Source: Cupriavidus respiraculi (GTDB lineage: Bacteria; Pseudomonadota; Gammaproteobacteria; Burkholderiales; Burkholderiaceae). From it: a stretch of DNA of 64,000 nt. Of this stretch, positions 61,425 through 63,667 are shown in pieces. The notes beneath the pieces were generated by a model. The model was given only the letters and a program-made list of their open reading frames with translations, did not search any database and had not been told where the DNA came from. The DNA is taken from contig NZ_CAJZAH010000001.1 in the NCBI RefSeq assembly GCF_914271545.1, positions 992,001 through 1,056,000 of the forward strand, in the 5' to 3' direction. Position numbers and translations under genes: made by a program. Within the stretch, counting starts at the first letter, position 1, and every line of letters begins with the position of its first letter.

Positions 61425-61446
61425 AATATTGAAGCGGAGAAGCCCC

Positions 61447-61653
61447 ATGCGCACTACTGTCACGATCGACGATTCCCTCTATGAGAAGGCGCTGGAAATG
61501 GCTGATCCCGGCATGGACAAGGCGGACCTGTTTCGAGAAGCGATCAAGACATTCGTGCGGGTGCAGGCGGCCAAGCGCCTCGCAGCGCTGGGCGGCAAGG
61601 CGCCCGCCATGGCCAGCGTGGCGCGGCGTCCGGGGAAGCCGGCCGACCAATGA
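61447..61653 (+). CDS. VapB-type antitoxin (ribbon-helix-helix)
   Basis: A 68-residue protein; [20 protein letters not shown] is the ribbon-helix-helix start that binds DNA, and the C-terminal tail should cover the toxin. GGAGAAG stands before the ATG. Its stop overlaps the toxin's ATG (ATGA), the standard layout. It likely represses its own operon with the toxin. Confidence 0.85.
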
Positions 61654-62030
61654 GAGTCCTGATCGACACGTCGATATGGGTGGAGCACTTCAAGCAACGC
61701 AATGAAGGGCTCGTCGCCCTGCTGGAAATGGACCTTGTCCTCACGCATCCAATGGTGGTGGCGGAGATCGCTTGCGGTACGCCTCCGGCGCCGCGCAAGC
61801 GAACGCTGCATGATCTCGGGCTCCTGCAGGAATGCCACAGCGCGAGCACGCCGGAGTTGATGGCGTTCATCGAGCGGGAAAAACTGTACGGCCTTGGCTC
61901 TGGCCTGATCGACCTCGCACTGCTCGCTTCCACGCTGATCACTCCGGATGCCCGGCTCTGGACCCTGGACCGACGCCTGATGAATCTGGCAAAGCGGTTC
62001 TCCGTGGCATACGGCCGGAAAACGCACTGA
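61650..62030 (+). CDS. VapC-type toxin (PIN-domain ribonuclease)
   Basis: A 126-residue PIN protein. The acidic metal residues Asp6 (LIDTSIW), Glu39 (VVAEIA), Asp88 (LIDLAL) and Asp107 (WTLDRR) are all in place. Such toxins cleave tRNA or rRNA and are held by the antitoxin. The gene begins inside the antitoxin stop. An intact module, not degraded. Confidence 0.87.
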
Positions 62031-62211
62031 TGCTCGCCAGGCAACGGCGTTCCCGGTTCACTTTTATCACATCAATTAATTTGAATAAGTAATCCGACAA
62101 ACGCGCTGCATCCGCCTCTTTCCCTGCCCTATAGTTCAGTCATCGGCGCGACACACAGCAAGCGACGAACCGACGAATAACTTCAACAACTTAGCGATAG
62201 AGAGAGAAATC

Positions 62212-62820
62212 ATGACCAACAGCGCCCTCACCAAGTTCCTGCCCGCCCTGACCCTTGCCCTGCTCGCCGCCGGCGGCGTGCAGGCAGCGCCCACCAGCGG
62301 CTCGGCAGATTCCTACGGCTATCAGTTCCGCAGCGCCCCCGGCCCCGTGCGCGACGTCTATACCGACGGCGCCCGCATCGGCAATGTGGATGTGTTCACC
62401 GAAGGCGCCCGTACGGTGGCCAGCCTCCGCGACGCCTTCACGGACGGCGCCCGCAGCCGCGATGCCTTCACCGACGGCGCCCGCAGCGGGGACGTCGATG
62501 TGTTCACCGAAGGCGCGCGCATCGTCGCCGGCCTGGACCGCACCGGCGTGTCGTCGGTCCCGGGCCGCACCCGCGACGCCTACACGGATGGCGCGCGTGG
62601 CCGCGATGCCTTCACCGACGGTGCCCGCAGCGGCGATGTCGATGTCTTCACCGAGGGCGCGCGCATCGTCGCCGGCCTGGACCGCACCGGCGTGTCCTCC
62701 GCCCCGGGCCGCACCCGCGACGTCTACACGGATGGCGCGCGTGGCCGCAACGCCTACACCGATGGCGCCCGCAGCGGGGACGTCGATGTGTTCACGGAAG
62801 GCGCGCGCGTGACGGTGTAA
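62212..62820 (+). CDS. Secreted protein of tandem TDGAR repeats
   Basis: A 202-residue protein not matched to a named family. A signal peptide (LPALTLALLAAGGVQA) is followed by repeats: the motif [FY]T[DE]GAR occurs eleven times. Units of 48 residues run from residue 83: two full copies and a final half, each with three motifs; the ending is VFTEGARVTV. The mature protein is rich in Asp, Gly and Arg, with no Cys. AGAGAGAAA stands before the ATG. The repeated acidic/basic turns could bind metal, polysaccharide or nucleic acid; no role is claimed. Confidence 0.85.
   Translation: MTNSALTKFLPALTLALLAAGGVQAAPTSGSADSYGYQFRSAPGPVRDVYTDGARIGNVDVFTEGARTVASLRDAFTDGARSRDAFTDGARSGDVDVFTEGARIVAGLDRTGVSSVPGRTRDAYTDGARGRDAFTDGARSGDVDVFTEGARIVAGLDRTGVSSAPGRTRDVYTDGARGRNAYTDGARSGDVDVFTEGARVTV
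62458..62817 (+). repeat. 144-bp tandem coding repeats
   Basis: Units begin at 62458, 62602 and 62746 (the last is a 72-bp half). The two full units differ at roughly ten bases, several of them synonymous, so duplication is fairly recent. Copy number is a candidate for variation between strains. Confidence 0.9.
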
Positions 62821-62980
62821 GTCCATCGGACTCCGCACGGCCCGGCCCCCTAATACCTTGGTAGTAAGGGGGCCGACGCGCCCCCCGGATAGTGCAAGAA
62901 TGCGCCCGCGAAGGCTTCGCGCCCTCGCGGCCAACGGCCGGCGTCCAGCCGCCGTGGCGAACCCTGGCAAGGAGCGCATC

Positions 62981-63667
62981 TTGAACACTTCCGCCCGTCC
63001 CGCCCCGGACCCCGCCTCGAGCCCCATCGTCTATGTAGTGGATGACGACCCCGCGATGACCACCGCCCTGTGCGGACTGCTGCGGTCCGTGGACATCGGC
63101 GCCGAGCCCTTCCACACCTCGCAGGACTTCCTGGCCTACCCCCGCCCCGACGCGCCGAGCTGCCTGGTGCTGGACGTGCGGCTGCGCGGCGGAAGCGGGC
63201 TGGCCTTGCAGGACCAGCTCAACGCGATGCACGATCCGCTCCCCGTCGTCTTTATCACCGGCCATGGCGATATCCCCATGACGGTGCGCGTGATGAAGGC
63301 CGGCGCCGTGGACTTCCTGACCAAACCCTTCACCGATCACGATTTTCTCGATGCGGTCGGCGCATCGCTGGAGCGCGATCGCGAACGCCGCGCGCAGCGG
63401 CGGTCGGCGGACGACCTCGCCGCCCGCTATCTCGCGCTGAGCGCCCGCGAGCGCGAAGTCATGCAGCATGCGGCCTCGGGGCTGATGAACAAGCAGATCG
63501 CCGACAGGCTCGGCATCAGCGAGGTCACGGTCAAGATCCATCGCGGCAATGCCATGCGCAAGATGCAGGCACGCACCTTCGCCGACCTGGTGATCATGGC
63601 GCACGAGGTGGCCGGCACGGTGCCCCCGCAGCCGCAACCGACGGGCGATGAGCGGCGAGCCGCGTGA
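62981..63667 (+). CDS. FixJ/NarL-type response regulator with TTG start
   Basis: A 228-residue regulator. The receiver has Asp21-Asp22-Asp23, phospho-acceptor Asp65 (LVLDVRL), Thr93 (FITGHGD) and Lys115 (LTKPF). The LuxR-type HTH (LSAREREVMQHAASGLMNKQ; GISEVTVKIHRGNAM) is at residues 160-215. AAGGAG stands six bases before the TTG at 62981, in place of any good ATG. The next gene overlaps the end and is probably the partner kinase. Confidence 0.88.
   Translation: MNTSARPAPDPASSPIVYVVDDDPAMTTALCGLLRSVDIGAEPFHTSQDFLAYPRPDAPSCLVLDVRLRGGSGLALQDQLNAMHDPLPVVFITGHGDIPMTVRVMKAGAVDFLTKPFTDHDFLDAVGASLERDRERRAQRRSADDLAARYLALSAREREVMQHAASGLMNKQIADRLGISEVTVKIHRGNAMRKMQARTFADLVIMAHEVAGTVPPQPQPTGDERRAA

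Follow-up and report, generated by a model that had tools for sequence, protein, structure and literature searches.

This locus raises the question of what protein is encoded at positions 62212..62820 (+) of the window, by which we mean the whole stretch of 64,000 nucleotides from Cupriavidus respiraculi that was analysed, and what such a protein may do in the cell. The coding sequence starts with ATG, encodes a long CopQ-like tandem-repeat protein of 202 aa and is preceded by a purine-rich ribosome-binding region (62199..62209, +) picked out by eye. Approximately the first 25 residues form a putative signal peptide (62212..62286, +), recognised by eye from its typical n, h and c regions and from the alignment with relatives, with cleavage probably after VQA. 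An N-terminal YGYQFR element (62314..62331, +) follows, which according to our alignments is common to many long paralogs. Residues 50-199 (62359..62808, +) carry eleven hexamers of the form [FY]T[DE]GAR, six of them inside an exact RDxxTDG motif; among 2000 shuffled versions of the mature sequence, the mean was 0.0005 hexamers and the maximum 1. Tandem Repeats Finder reports an array with a period of 144 bp (48 residues), 2.7 copies and 89% matches (62427..62808, +).

The open reading frame on the forward strand, the export signal, the eleven hexamers and the tandem 144-bp units had been described in a sequence-only reading of this DNA, and they are confirmed here, the export signal as a putative one judged by eye. 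That reading went too far in calling the mature protein almost entirely the motif, as the hexamers make up 66 of its 178 residues and the remainder is conserved spacer, e.g. IVAGLDRTGVSSxPGR. It had also placed all eleven hexamers in 48-residue units, which holds for hexamers 3 to 11 in the 2.7 copies and fails for hexamers 1 and 2, which precede the array. Adjacent 144-bp units are 88-91% identical, with 13 base differences over 144 positions between copies 1 and 2, 11 over 94 between copies 2 and 3 and again 11 over 94 between copies 1 and 3. The differing codons divide into silent and changing ones as 10 and 4 (of 48), 7 and 6 (of 35) and 5 and 9 (of 35) for the same three pairs. These figures fit a tandem duplication of the 48-residue unit under uneven constraint on the protein, the latter because changing codons exceed silent ones (9 vs 5) between copies 1 and 3. 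The closest named orthologs are shorter and carry fewer repeats (C. gilardii J11, 124 aa; Cupriavidus sp. AU9028, 138 aa), which makes the window copy the longer one.

No named family had been recognised for the protein before, and this was a mistake: it is CopQ-like, matches CzcJ and CopQ and carries their RDxxTDG motifs. CopQ, CzcJ, MmrQ, MmmQ, MmsQ and PrsQ2 are members of the CopQ-like family of Cupriavidus and Ralstonia. According to Janssen et al. 2010 (PMC2864759), CzcJ, MmrQ and CopQ combine a signal sequence with 3-4 RDXXTDG repeats, which are set apart by spacers of a defined length. The same paper names mmmQ, mmtQ, mmsQ and mmsQ1 as further metal-induced members, reports that named members are induced by many metals and that some sit in metal-resistance clusters, and confines CopQ-like genes to Cupriavidus and Ralstonia (PMC2864759). 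A 2020 transcriptome paper counts 21 copQ homologs in CH34 and terms the family poorly characterised (PMC7563307); with our profile, 20 CopQ-like genes were found in the CH34 genome. One of these, at pMOL30 85606-85848 (-), agrees with the printed transcription start of czcJ, which is given as 85892, 47 bp upstream (PMC9045368).

For comparisons within the family we used a set of 151 proteins, chosen by motif from loci similar to the window protein after six false matches among 157 had been dropped. Being so chosen, the set is not a random sample; its orthologs lack independence, and long members take up too large a share of it. It includes 76 proteins from six whole genomes, in which 116 genes were found (the genes of G002 and G022 are only partly included), and 17 of the 20 CH34 genes. 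With phmmer, the window protein matches all 151 proteins of this motif-selected set at E <= 1e-3, and none of the 151 in a shuffled set; all 17 CH34 members in the set (of 20 CH34 genes in total) are thus among its matches. The best CH34 matches are the chromid pair at CHR2 1570.8 and 2348.8 kb (4e-33 to 5e-33). Among the named members the E-values are 2.9e-14 for CzcJ, placed by its printed transcription start, and 1.5e-10 for MmrQ, 2.3e-8 for CopQ and 4.5e-7 for MmmQ, which we placed tentatively by their neighbouring genes and position. The RDXXTDG motif is present in the window protein in the six exact copies given above and eleven times in the wider TDGAR/TEGAR form. In the alignments, the spacers VAGLDRxGVSxxPxR and a short GAR-x-G are common to the window protein and the long members.

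An independent tblastn search with the window protein alone found a gene beside czcE in C. metallidurans BS1 (2e-6). This match adjoins czcE, czcR, a sensor kinase, a cation-diffusion transporter and czcA, which is the place of czcJ. Another plasmid match adjoins CueR, a metal P-type ATPase, a copper resistance protein and an RND pump. All nine plasmid records with a match belong to Cupriavidus; in seven of the nine no feature is annotated under the match in the PLSDB tables, which are incomplete.

Searches of Pfam, NCBIfam and PDB sequences with the window protein returned chance-level matches only, and 36 CopQ-like members scanned or aligned against Pfam and NCBIfam gave no convincing match. 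A TraO match in 5 of the 36 members (best E 2.4e-4) is thought to be spurious, and isolated members reach E 0.005-0.009 with DUF7550, TadZ_N, a glutaredoxin-family domain and FliH. A literature search for FTDGAR-like motifs yielded, among the matches listed, only seemingly unrelated papers. Judged by its sequence, we assign the window gene to the long CopQ-like (MmsQ-type) proteins, a known kind of gene that is here expanded.

The source genome gave 16 match rows with the single window protein and 17 family genes with the profile, and 16-24 CopQ-like genes were found per genome in the six genomes examined. Across 60 relatives, matches occur in 36 of 36 Cupriavidus genomes, the source genome included, and in none of the 24 genomes that represent other families of its order. 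Within its own family, 56 of 299 genomes have a match, 40 from Cupriavidus and 16 from a second genus, i.e. two of 25 genera. An order-wide profile search of 300 genomes at E 1e-8 found matches in two, both Cupriavidus, corresponding to one of 134 genera. A second profile matched eight of eight genomes of the second genus, all of them pre-selected as already matching. The 49 named loci found all come from Cupriavidus, Ralstonia or 'Burkholderiaceae bacterium 16'. Taking the second genus to be Ralstonia, our matches agree with the printed restriction to Cupriavidus and Ralstonia, and among the genera searched the CopQ-like genes appear to be confined to these two.

Acidic residues number 27 and basic ones 23 in the mature window protein, from which His, Cys, Met, Lys and Trp are all missing; 58 of the 151 family members contain no His, Cys or Met either. 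Since these ligands are absent, tight binding of soft metals (Cu, Ag) is not expected of the window protein. Using the 76 family genes from whole genomes, we compared members close to metal genes with the others. Metal-linked meant within 15 kb (19 rows, of which 15 were used; for two no sequence had been fetched, and two are not represented by a protein in the set). Genes 15-20 kb away were classed as unlinked. A His follows DGA in 11 of 46 repeats in the metal-linked members vs 7 of 303 in the others, and the metal-linked members are richer in His, Met and Cys overall (Mann-Whitney p 0.009). We treat this His enrichment as a lead only, because four related CopQ-type genes supply 10 of the 11 His. 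In the CopQ-type genes L096, L126, L038 and L039, which lie near metal genes, His and in some cases Met replace the usual Arg after DGA or DGG. Such changes suggest that the copper-linked relatives may tune the same scaffold to soft metals.

No confident model of the window protein was obtained with AlphaFold2 from two alignments (12 and 36 rows; pLDDT 44.7 and 53.5, pTM 0.13 and 0.15). On the charge-hydropathy plot it falls slightly on the folded side (-0.06), and 74 of the 151 family members fall on the disordered side; disorder of the window protein is plausible.

In the six genomes, 17 of 116 family genes lie within 20 kb of heavy-metal RND pumps vs 5.2 expected, 6 within 5 kb vs 1.6 expected, and 16 within 20 kb of CzcR/CopR-type regulators vs 2.6 expected, where the expectation assumes uniform placement over ~40.7 Mb and related genes are not independent. 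Near other RND pumps there is no enrichment, with 9 family genes vs 7.2 expected. The heavy-metal list holds 40 pumps above the cut-off and two just below it (650.7 and 627.2 bits), and the list of other RND pumps holds 59 after split or fragmentary rows were merged or omitted. Of the 116 family genes, 99 have no heavy-metal RND gene within 20 kb. The window gene also lies far from metal genes: on its own contig the nearest heavy-metal RND gene above the cut-off is ~92 kb away and the nearest CzcR/CopR-type regulator ~58 kb away.

Downstream of the window gene is a response regulator gene with Response_reg and GerE domains (FixJ/LuxR-type; 62858..63667, +, true start uncertain), so the regulator that the sequence-only reading had noted beside the repeat gene is real. 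A histidine-kinase-like ORF comes next, beyond the window (by eye). The region from near the window end onward (L028:10649-18786) shows, by eye, an ORF resembling a kinase, an ORF for a second FixJ-like regulator on the opposite strand and a 1743-aa ORF joining Ser/Thr-kinase-like and histidine-kinase-like parts. Upstream are a VapB-type antitoxin gene (61435..61653, +, start approximate; Pfam VapB_antitoxin above cut-off) and a gene for a PIN-domain VapC-type protein (61650..62030, +; Pfam PIN at 23.0 bits, just below the cut-off of 23.6), neither of which is part of the CopQ-like system. None of the VapB, VapC and response regulator proteins has a match within 8 kb of the orthologs in C. gilardii J11 (L046) and AU9028 (L047) at E <= 1e-10. 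A GGDEF-type gene lies upstream at both ortholog loci, whole in L047 and broken off in L046 (by eye), and L047 additionally has a histidine-kinase-like stretch 4.5 kb upstream that is 34-45% identical to two kinases near the window.

The promoters of the window gene and of the two orthologs share the inverted repeat ATCAA-N5/6-TTGAA and CCCTATAGTT. In the window the former is ATCAA-N5-TTGAA(T) at 62071..62086 (+), in the same place as in the two closest orthologs and possibly an activator site; the latter, at 62127..62136 (+), is a -10-like element conserved in three species and presumably part of the promoter. By eye, there is no good -35 element in the three promoters, which suggests an activator. 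The window-gene promoter differs in type from that of the operator-bearing paralogs described below and may need an activator. Two other modes of control were considered and dropped: the best match to the AgrR box in 300 upstream bases has four mismatches, with none of two or fewer nearby, and the best upstream match to the TATCTAC palindrome has five.

This palindrome characterises many of the long paralogs. The pattern TATCTAY(N1-6)RTAGATA occurs with 0 or 1 mismatch upstream of 43 of 150 family genes, the next best having at least three mismatches, and a simpler pattern finds it at 44 of 151. A mature part of at least 110 residues is found in 40 of the 44 palindrome-bearing genes vs 15 of the 107 other family genes, the YGY element (YGYQFR type) in 39 of 44 vs 15 of 107, and the VAGLD spacer in 42 of 44 vs 24 of 107. 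In 42 of the 44 genes the distance from TTGNNT to the TA of the right arm is exactly 17 bp, and this TA starts a -10-like hexamer; the two exceptions are L010, which is cut by a contig end, and L163. From this spacing of 17 bp it follows that the spacer of the promoter is taken up by the palindrome. In 27 of the 44 genes the palindrome recurs 92-150 bp farther downstream. When overlapping matches are merged, the six whole genomes have 27 separate sites, each no more than 336 bp from a family gene; 18 of the 116 genes have such sites. The pattern is present in 58 of 60 Cupriavidus genomes, with 230 forward-strand matches vs 3 when the pattern is reversed; in this count a single site may be matched twice, linkage to family genes was measured in the six genomes only, and a few sites with an odd spacer (e.g. 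G020:C51:378793 and G233:C2:543872) may not belong.

Directly downstream of the palindrome-bearing long CopQ-like genes is a TetR-family gene (TetR_N + TetR_C_13), for which L052:7688-9409 is an example, and in some species the palindrome also occurs immediately ahead of the start of this TetR gene. TetR orthologs (16 matches, E < 1e-50) were found in eight of eight Cupriavidus genomes tested; of six genomes of the second genus, one gave a weak match (1.4e-16) and five gave none. A repeat gene is directly upstream in 73 of 74 TetR rows, which represent 44 distinct sequences and include overlapping loci and redundant rows. The exception is AU9028 (G015), where L196:1486-2055 holds a TetR ortholog with a palindrome-like site and no repeat gene upstream, possibly the remnant of a lost module. 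One Cys, one His and one Met are invariant in all 44 TetR sequences, and the Cys could plausibly sense thiol-reactive metals or electrophiles. Judged by position alone, the TetR protein would bind the palindrome. We tentatively propose a model, which we regard as possible and somewhat more apt to be wrong than right, in which TetR shuts the long CopQ-like genes through the palindrome in the promoter spacer until a metal or electrophile attacks the Cys and releases it, with the window gene outside this regulon.

The source genome carries the module at C6:141027-142750 and at C1:83300-84935 and lacks it at the window gene. The two TetR orthologs are at C6:141027 and C1:84372, and the six palindrome sites are at three other family genes. 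The window gene has neither a promoter palindrome (five mismatches at best) nor a downstream TetR gene, the FixJ-type regulator being there instead. Two near-identical CopQ-like genes of this genome, C6:141865-142533 and C6:144439-145107, are ~1.9 kb apart with two palindromes each, and a single TetR ortholog was detected for the pair, after the first gene. Two leaders were folded in all: the operator-class leader L052:7718-7960 folds as RNA better than shuffles (z -3.4), in a long hairpin enclosing a second palindrome-like stretch, and the window-gene leader folds no better than shuffles (z +1.65). In the open-access papers searched, no TetR regulator is tied to CopQ-like genes. What is new here is the apparent TetR-palindrome module of the long paralogs; the CopQ-like kind of gene was already known.

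For the window protein itself, the reading that we favour, and to which we give about an even chance, is a periplasmic protectant against metal stress that works by weak cation binding at many sites or as a filler. The protein would be exported to the periplasm and would have no stable fold, and it would be produced under metal or envelope stress, where it would protect the cell; the mechanism would most likely be that of a many-site, low-affinity cation binder or a protective filler of the periplasm, not that of an enzyme or an adhesin. In favour of this reading are the family membership and its restriction to two genera, the published metal induction and silver phenotypes, the excess of family genes close to heavy-metal RND pumps and the low-confidence structure models. 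Speaking against it are the distance of the window gene from metal genes, the missing soft-metal ligands, the charge-hydropathy value on the folded side, the uneven constraint on the repeat units, the 99 family genes remote from heavy-metal RND genes and the failure of a 2024 proteome study to detect CzcJ or CopQ. The earlier suggestion of metal binding probably pointed in the right direction, since the named members are metal-induced and some lie within metal-resistance clusters. There is some chance, which we hold to be smaller yet considerable, that the protection is independent of metals, for example by a chaperone-like or osmoprotective filler of the periplasm, and that metals are only one trigger of the family. 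The near-balanced charge, the lack of typical metal ligands and of a confident fold, and the many paralogs away from metal genes are consistent with this; however, the published phenotypes of the relatives concern metals (PMC7380067).

On one strand, the repeat gene is followed by the response regulator gene and then by the kinase-like ORF. This order could also mean that the window protein is sensed by the adjacent FixJ-type regulator and kinase, or is an output regulated by them, and modulates a signal in the envelope. Precedents are known, as periplasmic CzcE is involved in czc regulation (PMC9045368) and the two-component system AgrRS controls prsQ2 (PMC7380067). We nevertheless consider this improbable: the response regulator has no match (E <= 1e-10) within 8 kb of the two orthologs or anywhere among the 49 named loci, and by eye a G+C-rich inverted repeat separates the window gene from the regulator gene. 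The earlier proposal of control by the adjacent two-component system is unsupported, the regulator not being found beside the two closest named orthologs. Nothing was found in support of the earlier adhesive suggestion either, and we consider it very unlikely that the protein is secreted to serve as an adhesive or structural repeat protein at the cell surface or in the matrix. Tandem repeats with aromatic and charged residues and a chance-level NCBIfam match to a serine-rich adhesin (E 0.16) would speak for it, but no surface anchor is visible by eye, no adhesin match goes beyond chance, and published descriptions of the studied relatives place them in the periplasm and link them to metals (PMC7380067, PMC2864759). 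The near-identical units, each with a terminal Arg, might alternatively be cut after the Arg of GAR into many short active peptides, and there is a weak NCBIfam match to a target of peptide modification (E 0.29). Yet the family so matched is named for its Cys, which the window protein lacks, no peptide-modifying or export enzyme was seen by eye among the ORFs listed around the gene, and the repeat Arg (72% of repeats) is replaced by Lys, Leu, Asn or His in the others, so that we see only a very slight chance for such a precursor.

Among the known systems, CopQ, CzcJ and MmrQ on pMOL30 of CH34 share with the window protein the repeated RDXXTDG and probably the signal sequence. They differ from it in size (78-92 aa, with 3-4 motifs) and in location, within the cop, czc and ncc/nre clusters, and CopQ has a His after DGA or DGG in three of three scorable repeats. 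CzcJ and CopQ were undetected in the C. metallidurans proteome of a 2024 study. PrsQ1 and PrsQ2 of C. metallidurans NA4, which are likened to the window protein by their description, are named CopQ-like and predicted to be small and periplasmic (PMC7380067). Silver resistance of the mutant NA4S needs both, the deletions being credited to Mijnendonckx 2019, and prsQ2 is activated by AgrR binding ATKACANNNNTGTMAT (PMC7380067).

Naming the window gene as CopQ-like leaves one false 'unknown' fewer, and the palindrome with its TetR gene offers a handle on the switching of long genes that are unlinked to any metal-resistance locus. The closest comparison is with the two near-identical genes of the CH34 chromid pair, which we take to be MmsQ and MmsQ1 and which PMC2864759 describes as unlinked to a metal-resistance locus. 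Both chromid genes have the promoter palindrome and the copy at 1570.8 kb has the downstream TetR gene, whereas the window gene has neither, and the pair is smaller, with 165 aa and 8 loose motif matches as against 202 aa and 11. Like the window protein, the chromid pair has a putative signal peptide, a YGYxxR start, TDGAR/TDGAK repeats and VAGLDRTGVSxxPxR spacers.
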